From a virus, in IMG/VR virus record IMGVR_UViG_3300030102_003926, positions 1 to 44,709 of that record: a stretch of 44,709 nt of DNA; one strand, written 5' to 3'. Both the position numbers and the translations under genes were made by a program. The notes under the pieces are model-generated. The model was not told the DNA's origin, ran no database searches, and saw only the letters and a program-made list of their open reading frames with translations. Positions 26,987 to 34,704 of the stretch are shown one piece after another; the stretch's first letter is position 1, and every line of letters starts with the position of its first letter.

Positions 26987-27991
26987 TTAAGTTGAAGGTC
27001 TACCACTGAACCTTGTACCACCTGGATTAGGAGTAATGGGTTTAGTTACCGCAGGTAATGCAAAGTCTTCAAAATTATAGTTCATTGAATCTAAGACATT
27101 CCTGTCTAAGATTGCCTCCCACCCAGTGAGGTTGTCACCTTCGATAAGTCTACCCTCTTTATATTCTCCAAAGTTACCAGCCCTAGACTCTATTAAAGAC
27201 ATGGAAACTTTAATTGTGTAAGGTAGGAGAGTCTCGACTTCATAGTTTGATTGCTTGTCAATAGAAATCTTATAGTCCTCGACAATACAAGGAGAGTTCA
27301 TGTATAAAGGTCCGTGATTAAGGCGTACAATCGGAGGACCATAAACCGTATTTTGAGAATTATTAAGAGTACTGGATCTGATCGTGTTTATCCAATACAT
27401 GACCAAATCCAAAGTTTTATCGAGGTCAGGAGTGTCAAACTGAAAGTAATCAGGCAAAGGTCTCTTACCATATCTGTCGTTTGTTCTCTGCCTTGACTCC
27501 TCCTGATTAAGAAGCTGATCTCCATTGTCTGTTATAGAGTTGAGAAACTTACTTCTCTCGTGAGCCGAGTATTGGTAAGCTCGATCCAAGGCAAAGGCTT
27601 TATCTGGGTTCGTAAAGCGTCTAAGTTCTTGCCCTCGATCAGTGTTTTTTATAGGTCTCTTAAACCTTTCAGTGATACCTTCTGTCTCCTGGAGATGGAA
27701 TAAGTGAAGTAAGTTTATTTCGAAGTCTATGCTAATCTTGCGGGACTCCGCGCCACCATAGGAAAAGAGTTGACCTGCTCTACCCAGAAGGTTGTAGGAA
27801 GCCAAGTTAGCCTTACCCTGTTCGTTTATGTTTATGTTTTCAAGGAAGGGGAGGTGAGTCCTTACTACTTGACCATCAGACCCTTGATACTCAAATAGTA
27901 AAAAGGACCTCTCATGAAGCTTTCTAGCGAAAATGATTGGTGAGTTTGGAGCTTGCCCTTCAACTTCTCCTCTGTAAATTGCGTCTAACAT
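26987..27991 (-). CDS. Baseplate tube-cap / tail-tube initiator-like protein
   Basis: I place the start at the ATG at 27991, one base after the tape-measure stop. An upstream in-frame ATG at 28039 would overlap the tape measure by 47 bases and lacks a ribosome site. The 334-residue product has features of tail-tube-type proteins of contractile injection systems. Examples are LPFLENININEQGKANLASY followed by SRKISIDFEI, and later a conserved block with GPLYMNSPCIVEDYKISID and a LLPYTIKVSMSLIE strand. T4 uses gp48/gp54 to start tube growth at this point of the assembly. The extreme C-terminus is a copy of the PITPNPGG tag, followed by only Ser-Thr. The exact T4 equivalent is uncertain. Confidence 0.7.
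   Translation of the reverse strand: MLDAIYRGEVEGQAPNSPIIFARKLHERSFLLFEYQGSDGQVVRTHLPFLENININEQGKANLASYNLLGRAGQLFSYGGAESRKISIDFEINLLHLFHLQETEGITERFKRPIKNTDRGQELRRFTNPDKAFALDRAYQYSAHERSKFLNSITDNGDQLLNQEESRQRTNDRYGKRPLPDYFQFDTPDLDKTLDLVMYWINTIRSSTLNNSQNTVYGPPIVRLNHGPLYMNSPCIVEDYKISIDKQSNYEVETLLPYTIKVSMSLIESRAGNFGEYKEGRLIEGDNLTGWEAILDRNVLDSMNYNFEDFALPAVTKPITPNPGGTRFSGRPST
26996..27040 (-). repeat. Pro/Gly peptide tag, copy C, at an extreme C-terminus
   Basis: This stretch encodes PITPNPGGTRFSGRP. Only two residues follow before the stop, so the tag forms the C-terminal tail of the tube-cap-like protein and is probably exposed. Confidence 0.8.
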
Positions 27992-27992
27992 A

Positions 27993-30059
27993 TTATGCGG
28001 TGGTGTCCTTAGTTCTCTTCTCTGCGGCTCTACGCTCATTATCTAGACGAAGCTGCTTGTTTTCTTCGACTAATTCGTTAAGCTTACCAACCTGTTCAGC
28101 AGTAGCTGACTTCATGAAGGCAGCTTGTTGGCTTTGAACTCTCTCAACAATAGCCATGAGAGCGAAGTCCGACTTCTGGTTCTGGGCTCTGGTCGCCTCT
28201 CTAGCTAGGCGCATCTCCTTTTCCATCTTCTCAGTGGCTTCTCTCTCTTTCTCTGCCGCTGCTGCTCTGTCACCATCGAAGTCCATCAGTTCAGCAATGC
28301 CACCGACAACTGCACCACCAAGCCCGCCAACTATTGTCCCAAGACCAGGAATAACAGAGCCCAGGGCTGCACCAGCAGCAGCATAGCCCAGAACATCCCC
28401 TCCGGTATCCAAGGCGTCACCCTTCTCAGCACCCATGGCCTCAGTTGCCATGCTGATTACAGGATCAGCAACAGCCGCAGCAATGCCAGCAACATTTAAA
28501 CCTTTAGCAGCAAAGCCTAAACCTCTGGCTACTCCAGCCATCTCTAAACCAGTTCCAGCAGCTTGAACCACTTTTCCGGTCCCACCTCCCATGTCTTCAC
28601 CAAGACTTTCGGTTAACAAGCCAGCACCGAGCGTGGCAATAGTACCACCAATGCCGCCTGTAAAATTTGTGAGAGAGCCTTTGAGACCTGCGAAGCCACT
28701 TTTAATATTGCCTCCAAGATTCTTAAACGAATTCTTCAAACCACCAAATCCGCCCTTCAACACGCTGGTCTGCTGGCTCATCGTGTTTTTCATAGCTGGC
28801 GGAAGTGGAGGACCTTGGAGATTGCTTCCTGGCATACCTGGAGCTTTTTGAGTTTTAGTAAACAAAGTCTCAAAAGCACCTCCAGCACCTTGGCGAGCGT
28901 TTAAGACCATAGACAGGCCGTTAATGGCCTGAACCGTTTGTATTGCTGGTGCAAGCAATGCTACTGTTGCTGCAAGAGCTTGGGGTGCAGTCTTCTGATA
29001 GAACTTGTTAGCTAACTCTGTTTGGTTCTTAATAGTTTCAAGCTGTTCCTCTTGAGTAGCTTGCAGGTTCTTAGAATCTTCAGGACCCTTCGCAAGAGAT
29101 CTACTTATGTTAACGAGGTCAACTGCTTGTTGCTGACTTACTCGGAATTGTTTCTGCACTAACTCTAAAGCAACGGCAGGATCTTCAGCACCATCCACGA
29201 CAGCTTGCACTTGCCTGCCAACATCCTCCATTGTCGCAGCTATCTGCTCAGAACTTGCCTCACCTCTTGCGAACTGCTGGGCGAAGTCAGAGATGCCAAA
29301 CATTTCTCTAGTGCCAATCTTATCTAAGCTAGGCTCTAATAAACCGAAGAAGCTACCTAAGCTATCTTCGTTGAGTCCCTGGAATTTTCCAAGGATATCG
29401 GACATAGATGCCTTGATGTTGGTCGCAACATCAGCCCCAAATATCGAGAACTTATCTACGTCCTTGGAAAGTTTCTCTAAACCCTTTAAGAGACTTTCAG
29501 TAGATACTGTGTAGGTATCAGCAGACTCAAGAACAGCATCATTAACCTTACTTAGAGCGTCGTAGTTCCTACCAGTCATACCAAGCAGGCTGTTATTTAC
29601 TGAGCGTAAGGTATCGGTATTTTGACCCGTTCTAACTAGCTGTTCCGTAAGTCTAAGAGTACCACCCTCAGTCTTTCTGATACCCGCTGCGAAGTTGTTA
29701 ACAAACTCTTCTGCTGCTCTCAGATACCCAATACTGCTTTCATTGATCGCTGCTGAGTTTGCATCGATAACTTTCTGAAGTGTGACGTTTGTACCAAGGG
29801 CCTTTGTGTTAATCTGGTCGGCTCTCTTAATGCTCTCTGAGAACTTATCGATGACCTGATTACTCTGAAGAAGGTTCTGGCCAAGATCAGTGAAGGCTTT
29901 TCTATTATCTCTGTTTGTAGTTATTAACTTCTTTTCTACATCTGTGAGATTTTTACTACTTTGGATTGACCGATCCTGAGCATCGTAATCATTCTCCATT
30001 ACATCAATTAACTGATTGATCCGATCAATTAATTGTTGGGTTGTTGCGTTGTCAGCCAT
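27993..30059 (-). CDS. Tail tape measure protein
   Basis: The 688-residue protein is mostly helical, with long heptad-like stretches in the first 380 residues. It then has Gly/Ala-rich hydrophobic segments at about 470-610 (GLGFAAKGLNVAGIAAAV, AAAGAALGSVIPGLGTIVGG) and a charged coiled-coil C-terminus (about 615-680). That arrangement, together with its place among tail genes, marks a tape measure that sets tail length and later enters the host envelope. Length is similar to T4 gp29 (590 residues). No peptidase or lysozyme motif is visible. The ATG follows the upstream stop by two bases. The matching assembly chaperone is probably the gp26-like gene at 33949-34704. Confidence 0.85.
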   Translation of the reverse strand: MADNATTQQLIDRINQLIDVMENDYDAQDRSIQSSKNLTDVEKKLITTNRDNRKAFTDLGQNLLQSNQVIDKFSESIKRADQINTKALGTNVTLQKVIDANSAAINESSIGYLRAAEEFVNNFAAGIRKTEGGTLRLTEQLVRTGQNTDTLRSVNNSLLGMTGRNYDALSKVNDAVLESADTYTVSTESLLKGLEKLSKDVDKFSIFGADVATNIKASMSDILGKFQGLNEDSLGSFFGLLEPSLDKIGTREMFGISDFAQQFARGEASSEQIAATMEDVGRQVQAVVDGAEDPAVALELVQKQFRVSQQQAVDLVNISRSLAKGPEDSKNLQATQEEQLETIKNQTELANKFYQKTAPQALAATVALLAPAIQTVQAINGLSMVLNARQGAGGAFETLFTKTQKAPGMPGSNLQGPPLPPAMKNTMSQQTSVLKGGFGGLKNSFKNLGGNIKSGFAGLKGSLTNFTGGIGGTIATLGAGLLTESLGEDMGGGTGKVVQAAGTGLEMAGVARGLGFAAKGLNVAGIAAAVADPVISMATEAMGAEKGDALDTGGDVLGYAAAGAALGSVIPGLGTIVGGLGGAVVGGIAELMDFDGDRAAAAEKEREATEKMEKEMRLAREATRAQNQKSDFALMAIVERVQSQQAAFMKSATAEQVGKLNELVEENKQLRLDNERRAAEKRTKDTTA

Positions 30060-31913: not shown

Positions 31914-32868
31914 GGCGGATACATCCTTCATTAGAAAGTACTGTTTGAGTAAGTTCCAGTCTAATTATAGGCTGGCTAGCGATGATGTTGAACTAGTAGT
32001 TCCTTCATTGTTTATAGACAACGACTACAAACGTCACATGTCCATCAACCTGGAAACAGGCTTATGGCGATGCTTTAAGAGCGGTGAGACGGGTAACTTC
32101 GTAAAGCTCTACGCACTGATCGAGAAGTGCTCCTTCCAAGAAGCGTATGAGAAATTTGTCTTTGAGGACTTTCTGGCTGGTAAAGATTCTAACTACCGGA
32201 AGCCAGTTGATGCCATCGATCCGCACAAGATCAAGACCAGCCTAGACGAGGCAGAGCACTTTGAGGAGATCGAGACGCATCCCGTCATCGAAAGCAGAAT
32301 GCTGCAAGGTTTCCGATTTATGATGGCAAAAGGAGGGAAGTATAAGGGCCGTCTAATCATCCCGTTCATCAACACCCGTAACAAGCTATTCTATTTTCAA
32401 GGGCGTGCTCTGAATGGTGAGATGCCAAAGTATCTCAACTGCAAAGACTTGAAAAGCTCTCAGGTTCTTTACCCCTTCGATTATTCCTCCCACGAGCCTC
32501 TATATGTCACTGAGGGTGTGTTCGATTGCCTGAGTCTCCAGGCAGTAGGGCTTAACGCAACGACAACCTTAAGTTGTTTTACGAGCCGTGAGCAGATGCT
32601 GCAACTAAGTCAGTATCAAGGTCCAATTGTGTGTGCGTTTGACAGCGACGACGCAGGCATGGAAGGGCGATACAAGTTCCTTAAGCTAGCACACTGGGTC
32701 AGGAGGGAAGACATCCTCACGGTCATCCCACCTGTAGGCTCGAAGGATTGGAATGAGATCCTCGTCAACGAAGGACCTGATAAGCTTCAACAGATTGCCT
32801 CGAATACTGTTCGTATGACTCCGCTAACCCTAGACTGGTTAACGTATGACAAAAGCCATATCGTTTGA
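31912..32868 (+). CDS. DnaG-type primase with Toprim domain
   Basis: The 318-residue product has the DnaG catalytic core: RLIIPFINTRNKLFYFQGRA (147-166), the Toprim glutamate in YVTEGVFDCLSL (Glu201), and CAFDSDDAG with Asp244 and Asp246. It would make RNA primers for phage replication. The N-terminal region (about 30-85) is placed like the primase zinc domain but has only one Cys and one His where four ligands are usual (RHMSINLETGLWRCF), so it looks degenerate. An in-frame ATG at 31777 would overlap the nuclease gene by 137 bases; 31912 fits better. No Shine-Dalgarno is visible, and TTTATAAAC directly precedes the ATG. Its 3' end overlaps the convergent structural gene by 30 bases. Confidence 0.88.
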   Translation: MADTSFIRKYCLSKFQSNYRLASDDVELVVPSLFIDNDYKRHMSINLETGLWRCFKSGETGNFVKLYALIEKCSFQEAYEKFVFEDFLAGKDSNYRKPVDAIDPHKIKTSLDEAEHFEEIETHPVIESRMLQGFRFMMAKGGKYKGRLIIPFINTRNKLFYFQGRALNGEMPKYLNCKDLKSSQVLYPFDYSSHEPLYVTEGVFDCLSLQAVGLNATTTLSCFTSREQMLQLSQYQGPIVCAFDSDDAGMEGRYKFLKLAHWVRREDILTVIPPVGSKDWNEILVNEGPDKLQQIASNTVRMTPLTLDWLTYDKSHIV

Positions 32869-33792
32869 CACGATGGTCTGGTTTAAGGCATTAAACTTCA
32901 GTCTCACAACATAAGTGCCTGTCATCGACCCTAGCGTTCCGTTCAGAGTTTTAGCGTGAGTCTTGAGGGCCTCAGTATCAAAAGTAAAAATGACTGTATC
33001 CTCTGAAGTGGTGTCCATGTAACCGGAAGTGTCTGTGTATCCAGAAACCTCCACTCTTGCATCTAAGTTTCTGTCCTGGTTCTTCTTGTAGATCTCAATC
33101 ATTGGCTCAGTAACAAGAGATTGCTTAAAGAGATTTACAATACTCCTATCGATGTTGGCATTCTCAAGAGTGAACTCGTTAGTGAATTTAAGGTCAACTT
33201 TAGATCCGAGCACCAAGAAGTTGTTTTCAAGCCTCGTCGCCACTCTAAACAGAAGGGGCTCTGTGACGCCAAAGAACCTGTCCTCGGTGAGTGTGAATTC
33301 GTTTATAATTGTATCAATTTCTGAGCCAGCAACCCTCTTGATGCTCCAGACATCAATGTAGTCACCCGTAGAGGAAACTCTGTTACGTATTGTAACATCC
33401 TCACCTGAGAGGTTGAATATTCCACTGGGTAGTGTGGTATTGTCTAGGAGCACACAGGCAAATTTACCTGTATCGAGCTTGTAAATGCCGGAGGAGTTGG
33501 CGTTAGCACCATAGTTCGAAGCATCGAAAGCAGTATTATCAGCGACAGCCCCTGCGCCTGAGAAGTGCATGAGCAGATTCGAGCTAACACTGGAGAACCC
33601 CTTTAACTCACCGTCAGAGGTGATAACCGAACTAGGAAACTGATTGTCTGATGCCTCGAAGATAGAAACACCACTAATCGAATGAGGATCGGTGTATTGC
33701 CCGTCATTAATGAAATACATTATGAGGGCGGTGGGACCTAAAACTGTGGGTCTCTCATGCCTCGTAGTGACCTTTTTATCGTTAATTCTCAT
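32839..33792 (-). CDS. Hypothetical structural protein next to the tail-assembly chaperone
   Basis: The 317-residue product is not recognised. The N-terminal two thirds are beta-rich with no motif. The last 90 residues (VEVSGYTDTSGYMDT, then TGTYVVRLKFNALNQTIVSN) look like an immunoglobulin-like or similar beta-sandwich domain. GGAG seven bases before the ATG supports the start. The ATG lies inside the end of the -1 frame extension of the gp26-like gene, so the two are coupled. A virion or tail role is inferred from its neighbours. Confidence 0.7.
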   Translation of the reverse strand: MRINDKKVTTRHERPTVLGPTALIMYFINDGQYTDPHSISGVSIFEASDNQFPSSVITSDGELKGFSSVSSNLLMHFSGAGAVADNTAFDASNYGANANSSGIYKLDTGKFACVLLDNTTLPSGIFNLSGEDVTIRNRVSSTGDYIDVWSIKRVAGSEIDTIINEFTLTEDRFFGVTEPLLFRVATRLENNFLVLGSKVDLKFTNEFTLENANIDRSIVNLFKQSLVTEPMIEIYKKNQDRNLDARVEVSGYTDTSGYMDTTSEDTVIFTFDTEALKTHAKTLNGTLGSMTGTYVVRLKFNALNQTIVSNDMAFVIR

Positions 33793-33961
33793 AGCGTTGC
33801 TCCAACCTCTTCATCTCTTCTGAGTAGAATTTCAAGAAGGTCATTCTCTCCTTCTTGGTCATTGCCTTCACATCAGAGTAAGAAAAACTAAGTTTGCTTA
33901 CTAATATGTAGGCTTGTTGCAGAAGGTCCTCAGAGGTTAAAGTCTCTGTTAGCTCACTGAA
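33782..33961 (-). CDS. Frameshift extension (-1 frame) of the gp26-like tail-assembly chaperone
   Basis: In the -1 frame relative to the gp26-like gene, 59 sense codons run without a stop from the slippery site to a TAA at 33784-33782. The fusion would be 307 residues (248 + 59). The extension begins FSELTETLTSEDLLQQAYIL and later has SFSYSDVKAMTKKERMTFL and a charged helical end. This hydrophobic-aromatic, D-V-x-x-M-T-x-x-E-R-x-x-F-L pattern resembles the second-frame domains of tail chaperones such as P2 gpE' and lambda gpT. It has no ATG near its beginning and fills the whole gap to the next gene, overlapping it by 11 bases. Confidence 0.75.
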   Translation of the reverse strand, partial: FSELTETLTSEDLLQQAYILVSKLSFSYSDVKAMTKKERMTFLKFYSEEMKRLEQRYEN

Positions 33962-34704
33962 AAAAAACCGGAATCTATCGGTACTGCGAGCGTCTCTTTA
34001 TGCCCACATTTCCCGCACTTGAATACGAAGCGGGGGTCGATCCCGTAGGTGACCCCTGTCACAGCCGTGTAGATCTTCTTCACATCTGCAATCTCCATCA
34101 TGTCAATGGCCTTAGAGATGAAGACCGGGTCGGAGTTACCAGCCAGTGATTTCACGAATCTGTAAAGATTCTTGTAAATGGTTTCGGTGTCAGATAGGAA
34201 TCTTTCCTGCTTATTTCGAGGAAGCTTAATCACAACTTCTGCCCCAAGCTTAGGAAGTTTGATAGTTCTCGGGTCCTCAAAGTCATCGGGAACTTGGGAC
34301 ATATTAAGCTGCTTGGAAAGCTGAATCTTCGAGGTGGACTCATGATTGCAATTCCTACAAACAATCCCAAACTCATAGTCGTCCCCATAGGAAACTTCAC
34401 GGAGCTTCATTAACAGGTAATTCTTATCCATCAACAAGAGGTCATCAATGTCGATACCCTCAACGGTCTTAGCAAGAAGGTCAGAAACAATGTCTTTCTG
34501 TATATCCTTGCCATTAAGGATTAACTGCTCATCCAGAAACTTAAGGGGAGAGACCTTAACACCTTCAAAGTTTTCGTAGAATCTACCTTTTGAGGGTAGA
34601 TCTGTCACCACCATGCTGGTGTCTTTAACTTTACCAAAAAGCTCCTCTAGAGCCTTGTCTCTCTGATTATTGATATCAGGAGTAATTTTTCTAACTTCAG
34701 TCAT
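33949..34704 (-). CDS. 26: Baseplate hub assembly protein / tape-measure chaperone, T4 gp26-like
   Basis: The 251-residue zero-frame product matches the T4 baseplate gp26 family: DLPSKGRFYE (35-44), REVSYGDDYEFGIVCRNC (102-119) and the final VPIDSGFF. Two Cys pairs (Cys116/119 and Cys230/233, the second in CGKCGHKE) probably bind one zinc. The family acts in hub assembly with the tape measure and is not thought to be a major component of the finished virion. The last codons contain eight consecutive Ts with a heptamer T-TTT-TTT in frame, allowing a longer -1 product. The gene starts 36 bases from the divergent helicase. A TATAAT on its strand lies 26 bases before the ATG. Confidence 0.88.
   Translation of the reverse strand: MTEVRKITPDINNQRDKALEELFGKVKDTSMVVTDLPSKGRFYENFEGVKVSPLKFLDEQLILNGKDIQKDIVSDLLAKTVEGIDIDDLLLMDKNYLLMKLREVSYGDDYEFGIVCRNCNHESTSKIQLSKQLNMSQVPDDFEDPRTIKLPKLGAEVVIKLPRNKQERFLSDTETIYKNLYRFVKSLAGNSDPVFISKAIDMMEIADVKKIYTAVTGVTYGIDPRFVFKCGKCGHKETLAVPIDSGFFSVS
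33961..33967 (-). promoter_or_regulatory. Slippery heptamer U UUU UUU for programmed -1 frameshifting
   Basis: On the minus strand the zero frame reads GGT TTT TTT TCA GTG AGC TAA. A one-base backward slip on T-TTT-TTT changes to TTC AGT GAG and opens the 59-codon extension. The zero-frame stop follows nine bases after the heptamer (33951-33949). A small inverted repeat, CAGAG/CTCTG (33944-33948 with 33931-33935), lies about a dozen bases downstream and might help pausing. P2 uses the same type of T-TTT-TTT site in its E gene. Confidence 0.75.

Follow-up and report, generated by a model that had tools for sequence, protein, structure and literature searches.

The window analysed here is a viral stretch of 44,709 nt (IMG/VR record IMGVR_UViG_3300030102_003926, positions 1-44,709). 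On its minus strand a gp26-like tail gene (33949-34704, 251 aa) is separated by a gap of 156 nt from the next gene (32839-33792, 317 aa), for which no family match was found. The gp26-like gene ends with GGT TTT TTT TCA GTG AGC TAA, and the -1 frame is open from the T run through the whole gap. The heptamer T_TTT_TTT is located at 33961-33967 (minus strand) and forms together with an eighth T at 33960 a T8 run (33960-33967); the 0-frame stop codon TAA (33949-33951) follows three codons past the heptamer. The -1-frame extension consists of 59 codons and a stop (33782-33961, stop codon at 33782-33784, minus strand), and the ATG of the 317-aa gene overlaps its end by 11 nt, in the window as well as in all 14 close relatives compared. 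A -1 slip at the heptamer would join codon 248 to the extension, giving a predicted fusion protein of 248 + 59 = 307 residues with the junction peptide ...SGFFFSELTETLTSEDLLQQAYILVSK, and the translation beyond the slip reads FSELTETLTSEDLLQQAYILVSKLSFSYSDVKAMTKKERMTFLKFYSEEMKRLEQRYEN.

The initial annotation had proposed a programmed -1 frameshift in a gp26-family tail gene that adds a chaperone-type domain encoded in the second frame. Its sequence, coordinates, gap, overlap and lengths were all exact, and comparative evidence strongly supports the proposal. Very probably, a G/GT-like pair of a short and a long chaperone is produced by ribosomal -1 frameshifting at T_TTT_TTT. Most ribosomes would synthesize a short form of 251 aa (TAC-N, comparable to lambda gpG). 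A smaller share would slip back by one base on U_UUU_UUU, with tRNA-Phe in both the P- and the A-site. These ribosomes would pass the UAA three codons further on without stopping and add 59 codons, which results in a long form of 307 aa (TAC-NC, comparable to gpGT and to T4 gp51). If both forms act as in lambda, the tape measure protein would be coated by the short one and tail tube subunits would be recruited by the long one, with their ratio set by the slip rate. We infer the ribosomal slipping at this site, its rate and the roles of the two forms, the roles being taken from lambda (PMC5009743).

A scan of IMG/VR yielded 15 relatives, of which 14 include the end of the gene. The T8 run, the frame offset and the extension were conserved in each of these 14. 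Read in the -1 frame, the extension had a pooled dN/dS of 0.082; the two remaining frames of the same DNA gave values of 1.8 and 2.5 and contained 2-8 stops per sequence. Judged by these substitution patterns, purifying selection on the extension is confined to the -1 frame. In four relatives (L004, L005, L010, and L014) the -1-frame codon immediately ahead of the run is TGA, and therefore the extension can be entered only at the run. All 11 full-length sequences examined have TTT TTT TCA as codons of F247, F248, and S249, whereas the nine other invariant phenylalanines of the gene all switch between TTT and TTC. Among the predicted genes of the window, the slip site is the only place with an in-frame T_TTT_TTY. 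The conservation of run, frame and extension is far beyond chance.

The short form matched PF12322 with 56.5 bits (cut-off 24.5, residues 34-239) and phrog_150 with 4e-16. The extension as a single sequence gave no match in an hmmscan against Pfam and PHROGs. A profile built from the extensions of the window clade, however, matched the gp51 extensions (phrog_634) in register over 48 of 59 columns with an E-value of 3.6e-4; reversed or unrelated controls gave 0.28-0.35, and none of 300 column shuffles was as good. Weak matches were obtained with T4 gp51 alone (E 0.0094) and with the extensions of jumbo phages (E 0.013). On this profile evidence the extension is homologous to gp51.

The predicted structures were compared as well. 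The extension was modelled as a three-helix domain. In BFVD the gp51 of P-HM1 ranked third (TM 0.66/0.72), with an E-value of 0.16 that is not significant, and other gp51 and tail-chaperone entries ranked under it. The gp26 model (mean pLDDT 85.6) matched baseplate hub proteins of other phages in BFVD. Residues 28-108 of this model matched the solved structures 3klu (YqbN, Z 6.4) and 2ob9 (HK97 tail assembly chaperone, Z 6.2), scores that are middling, with the next entry at 3.1. A plain Foldseek search of the PDB with the gp26 model gave nothing significant, 2ob9 being found at rank 10, and when the gp26 profile was run against the sequences of the PDB, it gave chance-level matches only. According to the model, the N-terminal part of the short form has a chaperone-like fold which resembles solved tail assembly chaperones.

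We searched named phages with PF12322 and phrog_634 for the same arrangement. In P-SSM2, S-PM2, HTVC008M, KVP40, phiM12, PhiW-14, and OLIVR5 gp51 lies in the -1 frame behind a single gp26, and a sequence NNT TTT TTY is found at most two codons from the gp26 stop. RAS14, XacN1, and LR756511 likewise possess T_TTT_TTY and a -1 extension, with the 0-frame stop located later. We tabulated 112 genes with T_TTT_TTY at the homologous place (T_TTT_TTC in 85, T_TTT_TTT in 27), which represent about a dozen lineages and not 112 independent events. The gp26 proteins of named phages and other lineages are 15-38% identical to those of the window lineage.

We considered three alternatives to ribosomal frameshifting. 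First, the RNA polymerase could add or drop a base on the T8 run, resulting in mixed mRNAs of which a part reads into the extension with no slip of the ribosome. The 44.7-kb window contains no other A8/T8 run and no homopolymer longer than this one, and all close relatives keep it. Transcriptional slippage would thus be possible in the window clade. However, T_TTT_TTC is found in L075, which belongs to the nearest other lineage, and in most of the family; these sites contain six T's only and still are classical ribosomal heptamers in the right frame. Slippage on T8 would leave these conserved T6C heptamers unexplained, and we regard it as improbable.

Second, the extension could be a small gene in its own right, as cyanophage gp51 is annotated, and its translation could depend on re-initiation or on a rare start codon. 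An ATG is indeed found beside the gp26 stop in P-SSM2, S-PM2, KVP40, phiM12, and PhiW-14, and re-initiation is possible in such relatives, where both routes may operate. The situation in the window is different. As the initial annotation had claimed, the extension has no useful start of its own: its first half contains no ATG, GTG or TTG, and the -1 frame reaches the earliest of these codons 77 nt past the 0-frame stop. A CTG with an upstream GAGG is present in the extension; it is not conserved and was ruled out as start. A junction ATG is absent from the window clade, HTVC008M, OLIVR5, RAS14, and XacN1, and the protein sequence of the extension is conserved right to the T run. Moreover, the heptamer is kept in 80 of 80 P-SSM2-like genes despite the ATG at the junction. 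A separate gene is therefore still less probable than transcriptional slippage. The KVP40 annotation lists the gp51-like extension (186612-186779) as a hypothetical protein apart from gp26, beginning with an ATG, and in HTVC008M and OLIVR5 similarly split annotations start inside the conserved domain.

Third, homopolymers are error-prone in some sequencing methods, and the break could be such an artefact or a decayed frame. This is contradicted by 14 other contigs with equal run length and frame, synonymous divergence and strong purifying selection, whereas an artefact would have left most relatives with a gene uninterrupted in one frame; it is the least credible reading of all.

Ribosomal frameshifting at the heptamer is hence the reading followed below, and we looked for RNA signals around the site. 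The initial annotation had pointed to a 5-bp stem-loop downstream, and this structure is present 12 nt beyond the heptamer (33931-33948, minus strand). A role as stimulator was not supported: its folding was no better than that of shuffled sequence (z = +0.26 and +0.42), and the 4-bp core alone was kept, in 10 of 12 relatives, with little covariation. Folding compared with shuffles and covariation among the relatives supported no other downstream structure at the slip site either. Upstream of the heptamer, gp26 codons 240-244 (GCA GTA CCG ATA GAT, 33973-33987, minus strand) form a block of 15 nt that shows no synonymous change in 11 of 11 sequences, whereas 112 of the 127 other degenerate codons with an invariant amino acid vary among these sequences. 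In the more distant L075 the block is not conserved. Judging from its conservation, it may be an upstream stimulator of the slip. A second block conserved at the nucleotide level lies inside the extension (33877-33916, minus strand; CAAGCCTACATATTAGTAAG). Pairing of this block with CTTACT could give a hairpin rich in A+T, some 60 nt downstream of the slip site.

Several observations count against a -1 frameshift. Besides the lack of a supported downstream structure and the T8 run, which could permit transcriptional slippage, the neighbourhood of the gene has to be mentioned. The gp26-like gene is flanked by uvsW and the 317-aa gene; no recognised tail tube or tape measure gene adjoins it, and no tape measure gene was clearly recognised in the window. 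Two open reading frames of the tail region (26987-28039 and 27993-30059, minus strand) overlap by 47 nt, and the upstream one of this pair weakly matches families of tail lysins and of tape measure proteins. Furthermore, the contig L168 (IMGVR_UViG_3300011253_000081) encodes a gp26 that is 99% identical to that of HTVC008M but has a different 3' end without the FF heptamer and without the extension; this contig is possibly chimaeric, or it represents a real loss.

Phage T4, on the other hand, counts for the -1 frameshift. T4 gp26 and gp51 are encoded on opposite strands, and both are PF12322 and phrog_150 proteins; in gp51 the extension is contained in frame. By sequence comparison the two proteins are paralogues which differ by the extension. 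T4 gp26 reads GAG TTC TTT and consequently lacks the heptamer, in a phage where the fused paralogue gp51 exists. CP220 also contains two copies, one of them with the extension fused in frame.

In a further group of phages the extension lies in another frame behind gp26, namely +1 (or -2). This group comprises SP-15, LIS04, GXN1, immuto, LR756508 and the contigs L076-77 and L078-85. The T-heptamer is absent from these lineages, and the codon ahead of FF (or the equivalent) does not end with T. SP-15, LIS04, and GXN1 have NCC CGA TTY in common near the gp26 stop, and NCC_CGA is a candidate shift point for the SP-15-type sites; TGG CCT GAC is common to immuto and L078-85. The gp51 profiles matched the +1 (or -2) extensions with E-values of 3.3e-8 and 1.5e-4 (none of 100 shuffles as good). 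Directly compared with the SP-15-type extensions, the profile of the window extension gave an unconvincing result, 3 of 100 shuffles being as good. In SP-15, LIS04, and immuto the gp26 gene is situated between the tail tube and the tape measure genes. From these sequences it appears that members of a single gene family use two different frames at the same junction.

Taken together, phages with PF12322 and a gp51-type extension probably arrive at the two products by three routes. The first would be a -1 shift on T_TTT_TTY (the window clade, cyanophages, KVP40, and others), the second a +1 (or -2) shift without the T-heptamer (SP-15, LIS04, GXN1, immuto, LR756508, L076, and L078), and the third a duplicated, fused gene without any shift (T4 and CP220). 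If this is true, the protein product has persisted in evolution through a change in the direction of the shift. A tree built from 23 gp26 proteins did not resolve whether frameshifting was the ancestral state, nor the order and number of changes. In the open-access literature we found no paper on the window lineage or on the change of frame.

Many phages, relatives of T4 among them, are already known to produce two chaperone forms by -1 frameshifting. In lambda (gpG/gpGT) and P2 (gpE/E+E') a small tail gene likewise gains a second domain without a start by a -1 slip close to its end (PMC5009743); the likeness is one of working, and sequence homology would not be expected. For Vandenendeviridae and Andersonviridae a -1 frameshift has been predicted on a T-rich site which lies at the 3' end of TAC-N, and all genomes have an open -1 frame there (phage Adele paper, PMC12846349). 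The conserved motif in these other phage families is given as GTTTTT, and they are likened to the window by layout. Closer to the window are the gp26-gp51 junctions of the cyanophages P-SSM2 and S-PM2 and of the Pelagibacter phage HTVC008M, which share T_TTT_TTY at FF near the gp26 stop and gp51 in the -1 frame. These are annotated as two genes, and the cyanophages also have the junction ATG; the window differs by its T8 run, a stop three codons later and the missing ATG. With the T4-type gp26/gp51 chaperones the window locus shares PF12322, the gp51-type extension and a short and a long form. Unlike T4 and CP220, where the long form is a separate fused paralogue, the window has one gene from which the predicted -1 slip would give both.

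The initial annotation had suggested that a frameshifted gp26 would link T4-like phages to the G/GT system. The homology to gp51, the paralogy of T4 gp26 and gp51, and the chaperone-like fold speak for this link. It is not novel, since the tail assembly chaperones of T4-like phages were already identified in 2022 (Vladimirov, Gautam & Davidson 2022, Virology 566:9-15, as cited in PMC10885494 and PMC12846349). Our results therefore confirm the link and extend it to an uncultivated lineage whose site is unusually clean. T4 has been named as the exception to the conserved G/GT frameshifting (Atkins et al. 2016, PMC5009743). Within the gp26/gp51 family, to which T4 itself belongs, the frameshift layout is common, which makes T4 a special case of this family rather than a phage outside the rule. 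Where phage annotations list a small "gp51" gene, as many do, it probably encodes the second half of a frameshifted protein.
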